Positions 36,300-43,107 of a stretch of DNA of 64,000 nucleotides are shown piece by piece. The stretch is from Clostridia bacterium (GTDB lineage: Bacteria > Bacillota > Clostridia > Oscillospirales > Acutalibacteraceae), in NCBI GenBank assembly GCA_017416765.1, contig JAFQBE010000013.1, positions 62,001-126,000 on the forward strand, written 5' to 3'. A program made the position numbers and the translations under genes. The notes below the pieces were generated by a model. It saw only the letters and a program-made list of their open reading frames with translations. It did no database searches and had not been told where the DNA came from. How positions within the stretch are numbered: the stretch's first letter is position 1; every line of letters starts with the position of its first letter.

Positions 36300-36890
36300 A
36301 TGTTGGCAGGAAAAGCACTCGGCTTAACTGATGCGCTTCTCGTTTCCGGTGTCGGCATAGTTGTTGTTATGGCAGAGCTTGCATTGCTCGCCGTACTTGT
36401 ATGGCTGCTTTCAAGGCTTGTACGCACTTTGGAAAGCAAAGCTGAAAGCAACGAAGCAACCTCGGTTGCAATCATCGGAGGTACAGACGGTCCCACGGCT
36501 GTTTTCAAAGCACCCGCAGGTACAGCAACCGCAAGCAGCCGCGTTGAGCTTTACGGTGTAGACGATACAACAGCCGCAACAATTATGGCAACGCTCAGCC
36601 ATCAGCTCGGCAAGCCGCTCGAGCACCTTGATTTCAAATCAATCAGAGCGGTTGACCAGCCCCTACAGCTCATCGGTGTTGATGAGCCTACAGCAGCAGT
36701 TGTTATGGCAACGCTCAGCCATCAGACAGGTATTCCGCTTGAAAAGCTCGATTTCAAATCAATCAGAGCGCTCGAATGGAACGGAATCGACGAACCCACA
36801 GCCGCAATTATTATGGCACTTGTCAGCCACCAGACAGGTATTCCGCTGGAAAGGCTTGACTTTAAATCAATTAAACTTATAGAAGAATAA
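36300..36890 (+). CDS. OadG/delta-like small subunit with three tandem 33-residue repeats
   Basis: A 196-residue protein. One membrane span (about residues 16-38) and a basic/acidic linker resemble OadG or the delta subunit of biotin-dependent decarboxylases. Residues 56-68 are TSVAIIGGTDGPT, a copy of the key motif of the OadB subunit. The rest is three near-identical repeats of about 33 residues (86-118, 126-158 and 162-194), each of the form G-[VI]-D-x-x-T-A-A-x-x-M-A-x-x-S-H-Q ... L-D-F-K-S-I. The unit resembles the single C-terminal helix-strand motif of delta subunits (AITAAI ... SIRR). It sits between the alpha subunit and the biotin carrier and likely organises the complex at the membrane. 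Confidence 0.7.
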   Translation: MLAGKALGLTDALLVSGVGIVVVMAELALLAVLVWLLSRLVRTLESKAESNEATSVAIIGGTDGPTAVFKAPAGTATASSRVELYGVDDTTAATIMATLSHQLGKPLEHLDFKSIRAVDQPLQLIGVDEPTAAVVMATLSHQTGIPLEKLDFKSIRALEWNGIDEPTAAIIMALVSHQTGIPLERLDFKSIKLIEE

Positions 36891-37361: not shown

Positions 37362-38537
37362 ATGGATTTTTTAGGTGTTCTTACGGGCATCTGGGAAAGC
37401 TCAGGCTTCGCTGCCATTACATGGCAGGAAGGTGTAATGCTTCTGGTTTCTTTCGGCTTACTCTACCTTGCAGTAGTCAAAAAATTTGAGCCTATGCTGC
37501 TTATCCCCATCGCTTTCGGTATGCTTCTTGCAAACCTTCCTGCAACAGGACTTATGGCAGACCCTGCCGGTCTTATGGATGCAACGCAAAAGGTTGAAGG
37601 CGCGCACTGGTACGATGACGGTGTATTGAGGCTTATTTACGCCGGTGTAAAGAGCAGTATTTTCCCCTGCCTTATCTTTATGGGTGTCGGCGCTATGACA
37701 GACTTCGGTCCCTTGCTTGCCAACCCCTCAAGCCTTCTTCTCGGTGCAGCAGCACAGCTGGGCATTTATGTTGCATTTATTCTTGCAATTCTGCTTGGCT
37801 TTGAGCCGGCAGAGGCGGCATCAATCGCAATTATCGGCGGTGCAGACGGTCCTACAGCCATTTTCACAGCTTCAAAGCTTGCTGCTGACCTGCTTGCTCC
37901 GATTTCCGTTGCAGCATATTCCTACATGGCCCTTATTCCGCTGATTCAGCCGCCCATAATGAAACTTCTCACAACAAAAAAAGAAAGAGAAGTCAAGATG
38001 GAACAGCTTCGCAAGGTAAGCAAAAAGGAAAAAATCCTTTTCCCGATTATTGTTACCGTACTTTGCGCATTGCTCATTCCGTCTTCCGCTCCGCTTATCG
38101 GCTTCCTTATGCTGGGCAACTTCATACGCGAATGCGGTGTTGTTGAAAGGCTGAGCGATGTTTCACAGAACGCGCTATGTAACATCATCACTATTCTGCT
38201 TGGCACAACAGTCGGTGCAACCGCCAACGGTCAGCAGTTCTTACAGCTTAAAACAATCGGCATCATTATTATCGGTCTTGTAGCATTCTCATTCTCAACC
38301 GCAGGCGGTGTTCTGCTCGGTAAGGTAATGTATATCATTACTAAGGGCAAGGTCAACCCCCTTATCGGTGCGGCAGGTGTTTCCGCAGTACCTATGGCAG
38401 CCCGTGTTGCCCAGGCTGAAGGCAAAAAGGCTAACCCGACTAACTTCCTGCTCATGCACGCTATGGGTCCCAATGTTGCGGGTGTTATCGGCTCCGCAGT
38501 TGCCGCAGGCTTTATGATGCTTCTTTTCCAGAGCTGA
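37362..38537 (+). CDS. oadB: Na+-translocating decarboxylase beta subunit (OadB/GcdB/MmdB family)
   Basis: A 391-residue integral membrane protein with about nine to eleven spans. It carries the family signature AASIAIIGGADGPTAIF (about residues 153-168), whose Asp is a known essential residue of Na+ transport in OadB. The region SSIFPCLIFMGVGAMTDFGP and the later GVSAVPMAARVAQ are also family features. It decarboxylates carboxybiotin and pumps Na+ outward, conserving decarboxylation energy. Last gene of the four-gene operon; its 3' end overlaps the convergent mecA by 26 bases. Confidence 0.95.
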   Translation: MDFLGVLTGIWESSGFAAITWQEGVMLLVSFGLLYLAVVKKFEPMLLIPIAFGMLLANLPATGLMADPAGLMDATQKVEGAHWYDDGVLRLIYAGVKSSIFPCLIFMGVGAMTDFGPLLANPSSLLLGAAAQLGIYVAFILAILLGFEPAEAASIAIIGGADGPTAIFTASKLAADLLAPISVAAYSYMALIPLIQPPIMKLLTTKKEREVKMEQLRKVSKKEKILFPIIVTVLCALLIPSSAPLIGFLMLGNFIRECGVVERLSDVSQNALCNIITILLGTTVGATANGQQFLQLKTIGIIIIGLVAFSFSTAGGVLLGKVMYIITKGKVNPLIGAAGVSAVPMAARVAQAEGKKANPTNFLLMHAMGPNVAGVIGSAVAAGFMMLLFQS

Positions 38538-39087
38538 GCAAATTAACAGCCCCTTCTTTTATCAGACAGTGCCAATGCTCATCGGTAAATTCGGTGAGCA
38601 TGGCACTTTCCCCGATTATTTTACCGAATTCATTCAGGCAGTTTTTTACTCCTGCCGCACCCGTCAGCGGGCGCACAAGCAGACGGTACTTATTATCAAG
38701 GCTGTACAGTCTGCTTTCACAGCAGCTTTTGTACAGGTGTTTCGCACAGTTCATCATAACATCTGCATTTTCAAATTCACAGGTTATGTATTCACCCTTT
38801 TTTACAAGATAGCGTTTGTTTTTCCGTCGGCTTTTTTCTTCGCGGTCAACCGAAAAGAAAAGCACACAACCGCCCGACTCACAGCGCATGGCTTCAACAA
38901 AAAGCCTGCCCGATGTATCAAGCTCACGCCCGAGGGTACGCCTTGCGCGTGAAAGTATAGTCCAGATAACTCTTTTTGTTTCAACCTTTGAATAATCCAT
39001 CTCTTCATAAGTTATGTTGAGATTTTTCATATCGTCATCAGACAGCTCTACAATTATTGTTTCATCTGTCAGAGCTTCAATTTTCAT
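38512..39087 (-). CDS. mecA: Adaptor protein MecA
   Basis: A 191-residue protein with the MecA N-terminal substrate-recognition segment (MKIEALTDETIIVELSDDDM, then LNITYEEMDY) and a C-terminal domain that binds ClpC. The central linker is moderately short. MecA delivers unfolded or regulatory proteins to the ClpCP protease. It converges with oadB and its stop lies inside the last codons of that gene; a terminator could not be recognised there. Family sequences diverge strongly in Clostridia, so the call rests mostly on the N terminus, length and domain plan. Confidence 0.85.
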   Translation of the reverse strand: MKIEALTDETIIVELSDDDMKNLNITYEEMDYSKVETKRVIWTILSRARRTLGRELDTSGRLFVEAMRCESGGCVLFFSVDREEKSRRKNKRYLVKKGEYITCEFENADVMMNCAKHLYKSCCESRLYSLDNKYRLLVRPLTGAAGVKNCLNEFGKIIGESAMLTEFTDEHWHCLIKEGAVNLLSSGKEAS

Positions 39088-39185: not shown

Positions 39186-40142
39186 TTGTCCGTGAAAGAA
39201 AACTTTTCAGCAAAAGAAACACGCGCTTTACAACTTGATATGCTTGCAATTCTCATCCTGCCCTGCGTCAGCGCATGGTATTTCTACGGCTCAAAGGCGC
39301 TTGCACTTGTTGCAGTAAGCGTAATCACCGCTGTATTAAGTGAGTTTTTCGGCAGAAAAGTTTTAAAGCAGGATTCTACCGTTTCAGACCTGAGTGCTGT
39401 TGTAACAGGCATTATCGTTGCTCTCATGCTGCCCGCAAATGCTCCTCTGTGGCTTGCCGCAACAGGCAGCAGCTTTGCAATTATTGCGGCAAAGCTACCG
39501 TTCGGCAGAGTTGAAACGCTTCCCTTTTCACCGGCTGCTGCAGGTATGGCTTTCTTAACTATATGCTTTTCCGACCTGATTTTTGACTATCCGCAGATTA
39601 CTGCTTCAAGCTCCGCGCTTTCCGGTTCAACCGGCTCATCGCTGGCATATATGCTTTCACAGAATATGTCTGTAAGCCTCGGTTCGGTAAAGGCTATCGA
39701 CATTTTCACAGGCAACCATCCCGGTCCTATGGGTGCAGGCTGTATTATTGTGCTTTTCGGCAGTGCGCTTTATATGCTTATCCGCCGCACAAAGCTCTTT
39801 ATCAGCGTTGCAGGCTTTGCTATAGGTACCGCAATTACAGCTCTGCTTTTCCCGCGCGTAGGCAATGCTTTATCTTCTGTTGTGCTTGAACTTGCCGCAG
39901 GATATATGATTTTTGCCGCTCTTTTCCTCCTTACGGAGCAGGGTGCTCAGCCGCACCACCCCATAAGCTGTCTGCTTTACGGAGCATTTACCGGTATAAT
40001 CTGTATGCTTATGCGCCGTTTCGGTGCGTTTGAAGAAGGTGCCTGCTTCGGTATACTTGTTTCGCAGGCGGCCTGGCCCGTAATCAACAAATACCTCAAT
40101 ATTCTCCTTTACAAAACAATACAAAGGAGGAAAAAAGCATGA
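39186..40142 (+). CDS. rnfD: RnfD/NqrB-family membrane subunit
   Basis: A protein of about 316-318 residues with eight or more spans. It fits RnfD over its length: SDLSAVVTGIIVALMLPANA corresponds to the RnfD D-G-S-A-x-V-T-G segment; SPAAAGMAFL to the NPA-x-x-G-R-A-F block; and FTGNHPGPMGAGC to the LFxGNxxGSxGE block. SALSGSTGSSL (Thr149) may be the covalent-FMN site, which is SGAT in usual RnfD. It is diverged at each block. Start is TTG at 39186 or GTG at 39192 (AGGAGG lies 4 or 10 bases before). No rnfC precedes it; mecA does, on the other strand. It overlaps the next gene by four bases. Confidence 0.8.
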   Translation: MSVKENFSAKETRALQLDMLAILILPCVSAWYFYGSKALALVAVSVITAVLSEFFGRKVLKQDSTVSDLSAVVTGIIVALMLPANAPLWLAATGSSFAIIAAKLPFGRVETLPFSPAAAGMAFLTICFSDLIFDYPQITASSSALSGSTGSSLAYMLSQNMSVSLGSVKAIDIFTGNHPGPMGAGCIIVLFGSALYMLIRRTKLFISVAGFAIGTAITALLFPRVGNALSSVVLELAAGYMIFAALFLLTEQGAQPHHPISCLLYGAFTGIICMLMRRFGAFEEGACFGILVSQAAWPVINKYLNILLYKTIQRRKKA

Positions 40143-40957
40143 AACCCATAAAAGTCATTTCCGCTTTGCTTGCTACCGCTATTTTATGCTTTGGCTTTGC
40201 TTCCTGTTCCGACGGCAATGAACCCAACAAGCCAAACTTTAATTTCGGTCACAATTCCGTTGTAACAAACGAACAGGGTGAAGAAATCACAACCGCACCC
40301 GCAGAAGAAAGCACAACAGCAAAAAAGCAAAGCAACGATTCAACAGATAATAATACAACGGAAGAAATTTCTTCTGATACGACCTCGGCAAAGGAAACTA
40401 CCACAAGAAAGCCCTACACCTTCCCCACAAGACCTACAACCACGGCTGCCCCATCAACACAGGCTACAACAGTACCTACGACACAGCCGACAACGAAGCC
40501 CACTACCACGGCAAAGCCCATACAGACCGCGCCTGTTGAGCTGCCCGAAACCACCACGCAGCCTACCACGCAGGAAAGCTCAAGCAACGATATAATTGAA
40601 AATGCCGCAAAAGCAATTTTTGATTTTGTAAATGAAGAACGCAAAAAGGCCGGTCAGGACACGCTTACTTATTCAGATGACCTTGCAGAAGCTGCAGAAA
40701 TACGAAGCCGTGAGCTTTCGGAAAACTATTCACACATCCGCCCTGACGGAAGTGCGTGGCACACCGTAAGCGACAATGCCTTCGGCGAAAATATAAGCTC
40801 CGGCTATAAAAGCGCAACAGAAGTGATGAACGCATGGATGGCAAGCATGGGACACAAAGCCAATATTTTAAGCGAAAACTATTCTTCCATCGGCATTGGC
40901 GTATTTTTTGACGAAAAAACCAATACATATTTCTGGGTTCAGCTTTTCGGTAACTGA
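40139..40957 (+). CDS. CAP/SCP-domain lipoprotein in the Rnf-like operon
   Basis: A 272-residue lipoprotein. The signal sequence ends in the lipobox FASC, so Cys23 is lipidated. A Thr/Pro-rich linker spans about residues 40-150, followed by a CAP (SCP/PR1) domain, recognisable from FVNEERKKAGQDTLTYSDDL, the SHIRPDGSAWHTV segment with the conserved His, FGENISSG and GHKANILSENYSSIGIG. Its ATG overlaps the rnfD stop (ATGA), so the two are coupled. In standard rnf operons this place between D and E holds the FMN-protein RnfG, which has no similarity to CAP domains. The function of bacterial CAP proteins is mostly unknown. Confidence 0.88.
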   Translation: MKPIKVISALLATAILCFGFASCSDGNEPNKPNFNFGHNSVVTNEQGEEITTAPAEESTTAKKQSNDSTDNNTTEEISSDTTSAKETTTRKPYTFPTRPTTTAAPSTQATTVPTTQPTTKPTTTAKPIQTAPVELPETTTQPTTQESSSNDIIENAAKAIFDFVNEERKKAGQDTLTYSDDLAEAAEIRSRELSENYSHIRPDGSAWHTVSDNAFGENISSGYKSATEVMNAWMASMGHKANILSENYSSIGIGVFFDEKTNTYFWVQLFGN

Positions 40958-40993
40958 ACATAAAACAAAAAACTAAAACAAGGAGGTTAAGCT

Positions 40994-42106
40994 ATGGCAA
41001 ATAAAGCACACAGCCCGGGTTTGCTGCTTCGCAACGCAGGTATATTCAACCCTGTACTTGTTCAGGCAGTCGGTCTTTGCCCGGTAATAGCAATGGCTAC
41101 AACGCTTGAAGGCTCTGCCCTGCTGGCTCTCGTTGCCGCAACAGCCATAACGCTTTGCGAGCTTATTGCCTCCGTTTTTTTGAAAGCCGTACCCCGTTGG
41201 GTAAGAACAGGACTTTACATCATTTTCGGCGGTGCAATTATTACACCGTTCATGATTTTAATTGAAAAGCTCAACCCGGAGCTTTTCGGCTCACTCGGTA
41301 TCTACCTGCCCGTTATGGCAGTTAATTCCCTGCTCGTACTGCGCTGTGAACGCTTTGCCGTAAAGCTCAGCCCCTCTGCCGCATTAAAGGACGGATTAAC
41401 TGCTTCACTCGGCTATGCAGCCGTGCTTCTGCTTGTAGGCACCGTACGCGAAATACTTGGCAGCGGCAGTATTGCAGGCTTTAAATTTTATGAAGGCAGA
41501 ACTCTGTCGGGTCTGCTCCTTCCCTTCGGCGGTTTCCTTATGCTCGGCTTTGCCGCTGCTGCATTGAGAACCTTTATTTCAGAATACTGGCCGAAATTCC
41601 TTGACAAAAAGCAGCCCAAGCCCGACGCTAAAAAGCACCGCACCAAAAAGCCGGCTGCACCCAAGCCCGCGCCCGAACTGCCCGACCTTACGCCGGAAGA
41701 AAATCCGTTCACCTTCCTTGAAATTGCAGGAGAATCAAGCCCCGAAGCGCTTGATTTAAGCTTTGATTTTACACAAGCGGCTATAAAAGAAGAAGCTGTG
41801 CAGGCTCAACCCGAACCTGTCATTACCGAAAAAGCGGTAACTGTGGAAAAAGTTTCTGCTATACCAACACCGGAAGAAACCAAACCGCAAATTTTTGCAG
41901 AACCTGTTGAAACACAGAAACCCGATACTGCTGACATTGCAGAAGATATCCCCGAACCCGAAACCGAAGAGGTTGAAGAAGTGCCAAAAGAAACGGTACA
42001 GCAGCCGACAAGCAGCTTTGAAGAAGTTGACGATGAAGAGCTTGAAATGCTGCTCAACCGCCCGGTAAACGATATTTTTGCCAAGCACAAGGAGGATGAA
42101 AAATGA
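40994..42106 (+). CDS. rnfE: RnfE/NqrD-family membrane subunit with long charged C-terminal tail
   Basis: A 370-residue protein. Residues 1-200 match RnfE: VQAVGLCPVIAMATTLEGSA keeps the first cluster cysteine (Cys29), and GTVREILGSGSI is the conserved loop. The second conserved site, usually V-N-C, reads VNSLLVLRC: Ser112 replaces the Cys, and a Cys appears six residues on at 118. Residues 205-370 are an unusual hydrophilic tail, first Lys/Pro-rich, then strongly acidic, ending in a helical DDEELEMLLNRPVNDIFAKH segment. Normal RnfE ends near residue 200-230. AGGAGG precedes the ATG. The gene overlaps rnfA by four bases. Confidence 0.82.
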   Translation: MANKAHSPGLLLRNAGIFNPVLVQAVGLCPVIAMATTLEGSALLALVAATAITLCELIASVFLKAVPRWVRTGLYIIFGGAIITPFMILIEKLNPELFGSLGIYLPVMAVNSLLVLRCERFAVKLSPSAALKDGLTASLGYAAVLLLVGTVREILGSGSIAGFKFYEGRTLSGLLLPFGGFLMLGFAAAALRTFISEYWPKFLDKKQPKPDAKKHRTKKPAAPKPAPELPDLTPEENPFTFLEIAGESSPEALDLSFDFTQAAIKEEAVQAQPEPVITEKAVTVEKVSAIPTPEETKPQIFAEPVETQKPDTADIAEDIPEPETEEVEEVPKETVQQPTSSFEEVDDEELEMLLNRPVNDIFAKHKEDEK

Positions 42107-42690
42107 TTTTTGCATTTTTAAACGCCTCTGTTTTTGCACTTCTTCTCCAGAACCTTGTATTCAACGGCGGCTTCGGCATGAGTGAAGCTATAAGAATTGC
42201 AACCAAGCCTAAGGATTTCTTCCCTATTGCATTGCTTGTTGCATTCTTTACAAGTACAACTGCGGCAATATGCTCCGCGCTTGATTTCATACCGCAGATA
42301 AATGCTTACAGCACCTCAATCCACCTTGCAATCTACTGCCTGGTGCTTGCTGTAATTTACCTTGTTTCAACCGCAATAATAACCCTGCTTATGAAGCGCA
42401 ACAAGCAGGATATACACCGCGTAGGTATGGCGGCGGTAAACACGCTTGTGCTTGCTGTCCCGATGATTAACCGCCGCGCCGCATTCGATATTGTTGAATC
42501 AATCGGTCTTGGCATAGGCGCAGGCATTGCGTTTATAATTGCCGTTTCCCTTATTGGTGAGGCAGAAGAAAAGCTCACACATAGCGACAGCATTGCCACA
42601 CCTTTCAAGGGTAAACCCGCACTTTTCATTTATATTGCGCTTATTTCCCTGGGCTTTGCCGGTCTGTCCGGTCAGTCACTCTTTGTATAA
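42103..42690 (+). CDS. rnfA: RnfA/NqrE-family membrane subunit lacking cluster cysteines
   Basis: A 195-residue protein with six predicted spans, the usual RnfA length. Shared blocks: QNLVFNGGFGMSEA for the N-terminal half-helix, AAVNTLVLAVPMIN for the second, ESIGLGIGAGIAFIIAVSLI and the terminal LISLGFAGLSG. In ordinary RnfA each half-helix has a cysteine (GICPF and NCAVLG) that helps hold a [2Fe-2S] cluster with RnfE. Here these places are Ser27 (GMSEA) and Thr114 (VNTLV). This reading is by eye against remembered family sequences. Start overlaps the rnfE stop (ATGA). Confidence 0.82.
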   Translation: MIFAFLNASVFALLLQNLVFNGGFGMSEAIRIATKPKDFFPIALLVAFFTSTTAAICSALDFIPQINAYSTSIHLAIYCLVLAVIYLVSTAIITLLMKRNKQDIHRVGMAAVNTLVLAVPMINRRAAFDIVESIGLGIGAGIAFIIAVSLIGEAEEKLTHSDSIATPFKGKPALFIYIALISLGFAGLSGQSLFV

Positions 42691-42703
42691 AGGAGTTCTG
42701 AAA

Positions 42704-43069
42704 ATGGACGAAAAAGAAAAACAGCTCAAGCCCAATGAACCTGAACAGCTGCCCGAAGATTTCAGACCCGTTATACCCGAGCCGGAATATCACCGCAGGG
42801 CTATAATGCAGTTCACCAAGGATTATGAGGACGATTCGCCGACTTCCACCCATACAATGAGCTTCCAGCAAGAGGAAGCACAGCGCAAGCTGCGCAACCG
42901 AATTATTTACGCATTTGTACTTATCGCAGTTTTTATTCTCGCTTTTATAATTACGGACACCTGCATTAAAATTTCCAACACTCCTCTGCCGCCCACCACA
43001 GCCTATGTTCCCACAACCACGCAGGCAGAAACGAGTTCAGAGGAAGAATCAGTTCCACACGAGCAATAA
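42704..43069 (+). CDS. Small single-span membrane protein at the end of the Rnf-like operon
   Basis: A 121-residue protein starting at ATG 42704 with AAAGGAGTT before it, 13 bases after rnfA. Residues 1-65 are hydrophilic and acidic (EQLPEDFRPVIPEPEYHRRA), a basic stretch RKLRNR leads into one span (about 69-91, IIYAFVLIAVFILAFII), and the outside tail is Thr/Pro/Glu-rich. I do not recognise it. It occupies the place of rnfB (an iron-sulfur protein of about 270-330 residues) but shares nothing with it and has only one Cys. A terminator follows, so it ends the operon. Confidence 0.7.
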   Translation: MDEKEKQLKPNEPEQLPEDFRPVIPEPEYHRRAIMQFTKDYEDDSPTSTHTMSFQQEEAQRKLRNRIIYAFVLIAVFILAFIITDTCIKISNTPLPPTTAYVPTTTQAETSSEEESVPHEQ

Positions 43070-43072
43070 AAT

Positions 43073-43107
43073 AACAGCTTTTGAAGTTCAAGCCTTCAAA
43101 AGCTGTT
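43073..43107. terminator. Bidirectional terminator between the Rnf-like operon and the LCAT-like gene
   Basis: AACAGCTTTTGAAG pairs with CTTCAAAAGCTGTT around a TTCAAGC loop. It serves the two converging genes, with TTCTT on the plus side. Confidence 0.85.

Follow-up and report, generated by a model that had tools for sequence, protein, structure and literature searches.

Rnf and Nqr are regarded as redox-driven ion pumps. Here we describe an operon that retains only the membrane subunits D, E and A of the six-subunit Rnf complex (rnfCDGEAB), located on a stretch of 64,000 nucleotides from a Clostridia bacterium of the family Acutalibacteraceae (assembly GCA_017416765.1, contig JAFQBE010000013.1, positions 62,001 to 126,000), hereafter the window. 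Gene sets of similar composition have been reported: a 2024 paper places an 'rnfDEA' operon beside rnfCDGEAB in Faecalibacterium duncaniae A2-165 and, in its available text, takes both as parts of a putative NADH:ferredoxin oxidoreductase (PMC10781979). Likened by gene set only, that operon is probably the same system as the one in the window. The available accounts from other Firmicutes give 'rnfCDEAB' as a normal pump, and those sets keep B (PMC10215811, PMC11456536). In the open-licence literature, surveyed mostly at listing level, we found no description of redox-part loss in reduced Rnf sets.

We propose, at roughly even confidence, that the operon in the window is a redox-uncoupled descendant of the Rnf D/E/A membrane core, which together with a single-span protein may act as a platform for envelope-acting domains. 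The non-redox nature of the set appears well supported, while its envelope role is what we infer from the partner proteins.

Loss of redox subunits, cluster ligands and flavinylation motif

The initial annotation, made from the DNA letters of the window, had described a reduced operon with only the Rnf membrane subunits D, E and A and mecA on the other strand, and all genes of this arrangement were recovered. Opposite to mecA lie, in this order, an rnfD-like gene, a CAP-domain lipoprotein gene, rnfE-like and rnfA-like genes and the gene of a single-span protein, all five operon genes being confirmed (Table 1), and the locus shows no recognisable rnfB, rnfC or rnfG. The D, E and A proteins pass their Pfam cut-offs (27.7 bits for PF03116, 23.8 bits for PF02508) and miss the NCBIfam subunit cut-offs by far, with 129 of 207 bits for rnfD, 97 of 213 for rnfE and 42 of 229 for rnfA. 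Matches to solved Rnf chains, besides the value for D in Table 1, reach 75.9 bits for E and about 31 bits for A.

The host genome (2.77 Mb, 98% complete) holds a complete ordinary rnfCDGEAB on another contig, C11, which makes the window set an extra, derived one. Two PF03116 and four PF02508 genes are divided between C11 and the window, and the genome search for the missing subunits located rnfB, rnfC and FMN_bind (rnfG) matches over cut-off on C11 only, beside C11's own D, E and A. The B, C and G encoded elsewhere thus come with D, E and A of their own, and the window genes fall outside ordinary Rnf.

Following the residue numbering of the solved complexes in the available text of PMC9588780 and PMC11889175, we compared functional residues across 122 related loci, hereafter paralogues (132 loci with paralogue-type D, minus nine duplicates and minus L177, whose RnfD-like gene stands alone, has a normal flavin motif and was set aside as another type). 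The comparison set comprised 20 loci, 17 of them with A and E, and includes L162, which is itself cluster-less. Among the ligands of the membrane [2Fe-2S] cluster, Cys25 of A is kept in 0/107 paralogues versus 16/17 comparison loci, Cys113 of A in 6/107 versus 16/17, Cys25 of E in 67/114 versus 17/17 and Cys108 of E in 0/114 versus 16/17, all cysteine exceptions in the comparison set falling on L162. The window retains one ligand of the four (E Cys25); the second E cysteine is replaced by Ser and the A cysteines by Ser and Thr.

The flavin-bearing Thr of D is kept in 4 of the 122 paralogues versus 18 of the 20 comparison loci. D of the window has Ser in place of this flavinylated Thr, Ala for Glu185, Ser for Asn124, Glu for Asp248 and Met for Asn90, and its motifs around the flavin are altered, affecting the Gly-rich loop and the TDYTTCP motif, which reads TEQGAQP. 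Where an RnfC-like gene persists, its GxGG loop (FMN/NADH) is found in 0/44 paralogues (one gapped there) versus 20/20 comparison loci. Read from its sequence, the locus is without B, G and C, and neither the membrane [2Fe-2S] site nor the flavinylation motif is preserved.

Table 1. Features of the reduced operon and its divergent neighbour (window positions).
Feature	Position	Strand	Evidence
mecA-like gene, divergent neighbour, not claimed as a subunit	38512..39087	-	PF05389 68.1 bits
rnfD-like gene	39186..40142	+	PF03116 192.8 bits; 112.6 bits to RnfD of 7zc6
CAP-domain lipoprotein, rnfG slot of rnfCDGEAB	40139..40957	+	PF00188 72.1 bits; lipobox-like FASC, Cys23, read from sequence
rnfE-like gene with extra 176-residue tail	40994..42106	+	PF02508 109 bits
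rnfA-like gene	42103..42690	+	PF02508 70.7 bits
Single-span protein, 121 residues, anchor stub of DUF4015-protein family	42704..43069	+	Relatives' post-rnfA proteins
Terminator-like hairpin, operon end	43073..43107	+	14 pairs; readable on both strands

The rnfD-like gene starts at TTG 39186 or possibly at GTG 39192. Both ATGA overlaps that had been noted, of rnfD with the CAP gene (40139-40142) and of rnfE with rnfA (42103-42106), are real. The single closing terminator corresponds to the hairpin of Table 1, which has the longest stem of the 8 terminator-like sites in the region (5.9 expected); a promoter scan of the region (8 found, 5.0 expected) was uninformative. The CAP lipoprotein was also considered as DalA, a divisome name that was not adopted because it scored 46.8 bits against a cut-off of 200. 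Upstream, in an open reading frame at 36300-36890, a stretch like DEPTAAIIMALVSHQTGIPLERLDFKSI recurs in about three near-repeats, and the frame precedes a biotin-carrier-like and OadB-like pair; by eye, the set resembles a Na+-pumping decarboxylase.

Distribution and repeated loss of the redox parts

An RnfD profile built from the paralogues was used to search 100 sampled genomes of the window's family, of which 33 reached at least 270 bits, the next listed match lying at 232 bits; additional mecA-linked loci exist below 270 bits. Loci were inspected for 31 of these 33 genomes, the window included (all but G012 and G038). A scan of named genomes, from which the best 80 of 174 relatives were kept, returned nearly exclusively metagenome-assembled Clostridia, plus Caproiciproducens galactitolivorans, a cultivable species whose locus L135 reads C-D-E-A. 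Searches at order and class level added 20 further loci, namely ten paralogues (six from family code f26, one each from f15, f5, f9 and f1, the last being the window's own) and ten operons containing all of C, D, G, E, A and B, among which L162 proved to lack the cluster ligands. Because the 240-277 bit range outside the window's family is mixed, the order and class tallies are not to be taken as paralogue counts.

The 122 paralogues present a series of reduced operons, C-D-E-A-X, D-E-A-X and D-CAP-E-A-X (the window clade) next to mecA, C-D only (L172, L173, L174, L176) and D-X only (L175, L178, L183, where stub forms of X persist), X denoting the single-span protein. An RnfC-like gene is kept in 44, E in 114 and A in 107 of them, some of the missing genes being cut by contig ends. 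No RnfG was recognised at any locus with a paralogue-type D, an absence that is partly definitional because loci with a recognised RnfG had been assigned to the comparison set, and RnfB gave only two weak opposite-strand matches at these loci (L068, L150). The surroundings are shared as well, with a MecA profile match at 91/122 and a ribulose-phosphate-epimerase-like gene, named by eye, at 104/122 loci. In two genomes of family f20, a complete rnfCDGEAB is likewise divergent to mecA (L157, L159), which points to an origin of the reduced set in place, from an ordinary Rnf operon.

The CAP lipoprotein predicted for the RnfG slot is indeed present in the window, and its occurrence there is restricted to the nearest relatives, 8 loci including the window. 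At L074 (5762-7261), two tandem CAP genes separate the D and E genes. The RnfC-like frames of L173 (2967-5321) and L174 (6396-9080) are about 785 and 895 residues long, nearly double the usual length.

As had been suggested, trees of D, E and A set the reduced operons apart from ordinary Rnf. In a first D tree of 106 rows, covering 85 of the 122 paralogue loci and omitting L074, the paralogue rows fall into a single clade (100) that sits among RnfD of related families, away from the group of the C11 copy, and a C-less clade of 33 rows (99) includes the window. The split between paralogue and canonical sequences received 96 in the A tree and 94 in the E tree, where it is weaker and where long branches meet; the window clade received 100 in both.

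A second, careful D tree (55 RnfD rows, 20 of the 122 paralogues, L074 omitted) places the main paralogue group and two further lineages, genus codes g143 and g113, in three separate places, and three redox-loss changes are forced by its starred branches (bootstrap 5-95% range 3-3). In g143 (L162, L191-L194), both A cysteines are replaced in 5/5 loci and E Cys108 is changed to Gly in 5/5, E Cys25 being kept in four, with an operon that still reads C-D-G-E-A-B-DUF4015 or nearly so (L193 without a recognised G, L194 without a recognised B); in L195, L197 and L198, which belong to the same family, this operon is found with its four cysteines complete. Judged by residues and gene order, the g143 operons are natural intermediates, in which the cluster cysteines have gone from a complete or near-complete rnfCDGEAB. 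In g113 (L199, L200), the order is C-D-E-A-DUF4015, all four cysteines are lost and the RnfE-like protein has about 505 residues; L202 of the same family has an intact operon with DUF4015. The operons of both these other loss lineages thus likewise end in DUF4015.

NG86 estimates of dN/dS for the window against L038, L070, L071 and L072 lie at about 0.14-0.21 for D, 0.17-0.23 for E, 0.08-0.12 for A, 0.10-0.20 for the single-span protein and 0.25-0.33 for CAP, values that are rough because dS exceeds 1.2 and is saturated; for a fifth relative, L073, four of the six genes gave no dS. These figures indicate that the operon genes are under purifying selection. Together with the conserved gene order, the ligand loss, the tree splits and three genomes in which no other Rnf D/E/A exists (see below), they bear out the earlier view of a derived complex and not of scattered remnants.

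A tail of at least 80 residues on RnfE occurs in 45/74 C-less loci, in 1/40 loci with C and in 0/17 comparison loci, and many of these tails have, by eye, a short acidic end such as ELEELMSKSLDDII. The tail of the window protein is judged to be cytosolic because its start is basic, and it may represent a docking arm acquired upon the loss of RnfC.

A candidate envelope platform and its alternatives

The 121-residue single-span protein that had been assigned to the RnfB slot is present; its description needs to be amended, as it is the stub, reduced to the anchor, of a family of larger DUF4015 proteins. In the full-length X proteins, the N-terminus looks cytosolic, a single helix follows, and many relatives carry at the C-terminus DUF4015 (PF13200), which we take to be a putative glycosyl hydrolase domain. 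PF13200 was matched in 6/6 full-length X proteins submitted from paralogue loci (60-109 bits), in L161 and L162 and in 10/10 proteins submitted from L191-L195, L197-L200 and L202, and gave no match in the X stub of L175. A DUF4015 gene also follows complete, cysteine-intact Rnf operons (L161, L195, L197, L198, L202). By profile, X was found at 67/122 loci, 47 of them with long frames, and of the 55 loci without a profile match 40 were inspected, in 13 of which A is immediately followed, by eye, by a single-span frame. Only the anchor, without a PF13200 domain, is left in the window and its closest relatives, so what is conserved in X seems to be the helix region. A further, weak pointer to the cell wall is a fusion of DUF4015 to YkyA, the latter being linked there with polysaccharide deacetylases in the available text of PMC12700454.

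These partners, DUF4015, CAP and the single-span protein, are the reason why we favour an envelope platform. D, E and A would form a stable membrane platform with the single-span helix, which would position or regulate domains that act on the envelope outside the cytoplasm, namely DUF4015 in relatives and the CAP lipoprotein in the window. The RnfE tail, ending in its short acidic motif, would take the place of RnfC as a cytosolic docking arm. Because the R67-E115 gate pair of E is retained, the E/A pair may also keep an inward/outward switch, with conformational or ion-gradient input possible. More broadly, and at a little under even confidence, we suggest that redox parts were lost on at least three occasions from DUF4015-ended Rnf operons of Oscillospirales-type Clostridia, whose D/E/A now act as an envelope-linked platform or switch.

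Several observations weigh against an envelope platform without redox function. The position of the flavin Thr in D is occupied by Ser in 107/122 paralogues (2/20 comparison loci), and an FMN carried on this Ser is conceivable; the eight cluster cysteines of RnfC persist wherever this gene is present, each in 43-44/44 paralogues versus 19-20/20 comparison loci. An X relative lies near D in 58/122 loci, some of these matched via the anchor alone, and several loci (e.g. L046, L048, L060) have no recognisable single-span partner after A. The function of DUF4015 is putative, and the domain is missing from the window's own genome, in which no PF13200 match was found. Complete operons with no DUF4015 neighbour in view are common (e.g. 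L157-L160, L163, L164), hence the link between DUF4015 and Rnf is not universal.

The initial annotation had considered another role, as ion channel, transporter or envelope scaffold. The derived role stands and its partners favour the scaffold, leaving as the best of the alternatives, although an unlikely one, a redox-independent channel or transporter for ions or small solutes, in which D reverts to a transporter, E/A form a gated ion path and the extracellular domains are accessory. The topology of RnfD is likened to urea and ammonium transporters in the available text on C. tetanomorphum (PMC9588780), RnfA/E is described as a Na+ channel in that on A. woodii (PMC11889175), and the gate pair of E is kept better without C: R67 is found in 25/40 loci with C, 65/66 C-less loci and 8/8 of the window clade, E115 in 4/40, 58/66 and 8/8, respectively, the window keeping both. 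The remaining proposed ion path fared worse. Glu185 of D is kept in 0/122 paralogues versus 20/20 comparison loci, Asn90 in 1/122 versus 11/20, and Asn124, still present in 35/44 loci with C, is found in 5/70 C-less loci outside the window clade and in 0/8 inside, which is the clade most stripped in D. In 7/7 of the window clade, A has other residues at E88, T110 and T111, and five of the seven newly conserved D columns are non-polar (Pro, Phe, Ala, Phe, Met), the other two being Ser152 and Arg224. A role as ion channel is weakened by the loss of these several residues.

Less probable still is a set that remains redox-active, passing electrons from a Ser-linked flavin in D, and from RnfC iron-sulphur clusters where these are present, to an outside acceptor. 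Besides the Ser and the RnfC cysteines mentioned above, it draws on the C-containing loci, which according to the residue counts retain more of the old D site (Asn124, as given, and Asp248 in 37/44), and on an ApbE-like gene in the genome (by eye, L007:2812-3822). The window, however, is without C, B and G, has lost three of the four membrane-cluster ligands and shows changed motifs around the flavin.

We consider it very improbable that the window genes are alternative membrane subunits that join the ordinary Rnf of C11 and make use of the B, C and G encoded there. In favour, and bearing on coexistence with a full Rnf, which had been raised as a point to check, ordinary rnfB exceeds its cut-off in 28/33 family genomes with a paralogue, and canonical rnfCDGEAB lies in the same genome as the window. 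In two more (G072, G096), rnfB stays below its cut-off, at 53.4 and 66.3 bits, and a second RnfD is present. Three genomes (G051, G077, G090), however, each have a single RnfD-type match and just two PF02508 genes, which both lie at the paralogue locus; this rejects borrowing as the sole explanation. No rnfB over cut-off was found in G051 and G090, and in G077 a 262-residue ferredoxin-repeat frame, flagged over the cut-off with 71.4 bits by summing, matches only the ferredoxin part of the rnfB model and not the N-terminal part of RnfB. Borrowed B and G would moreover be unable to exchange electrons through the window set, because its cluster ligands are lost.

A functionless, decaying remnant, to which long branches and repeated gene losses might point, or an assembly artefact is scarcely credible and was rejected, given open and overlapping frames, the same gene order in many genomes and across families, and low dN/dS.

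Meaning and comparison with known Rnf-derived systems

A lineage that is under selection although the membrane cluster and most flavin features are missing implies that the D/E/A core can be useful without ordinary electron transfer, and the redox-uncoupled platform favoured here suggests, as yet unproven, that an energy machine was reused for another job. If true, this would be a recurrent non-redox class of membrane machine derived from an electron-transfer pump. The intermediates, from the complete or near-complete g143 operons without a full cluster site over C-D-E-A and D-E-A to D alone, offer a natural dissection of the Rnf machine. For annotation, rnfD, rnfE and rnfA genes in gut Clostridia, probably including Faecalibacterium, would need a residue check before being counted as energy conservation.

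Among described systems, reduced Rnf relatives are known as two-subunit NQR/RNF-like systems, whose RnfD-like subunit is without the conserved Thr and which, in the available text of PMC8238504 and PMC10979944, consist of an RnfG-like protein and an RnfD-NAD-domain fusion. The window set differs in keeping E and A and in having neither G nor NAD domain: PF00175 is absent from the Pfam hit list of its D protein, and the sole FMN_bind match of the genome lies on C11. At L177 (4666-6420, genome G076), a standalone 585-residue RnfD-like gene adjoins a lipoprotein-like gene and possibly belongs to an NQR/RNF-like system. Na+-NQR is, according to the available text of PMC12174285, also an Rnf offshoot with rnfB lost; flavins and the [2Fe-2S] cluster persist there and NqrF was added, whereas the window set has no recognised input module and has lost the cluster ligands. 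To the Rnf complex itself (C. tetanomorphum 7zc6, A. woodii 9eri), the operon is linked by homologous D, E and A in the same D-E-A order. It departs from this complex in having only these three of the six subunits at the locus, in the loss of membrane cluster ligands, flavinylation motif and ion-path residues, and in the added E tail, CAP and single-span partners.

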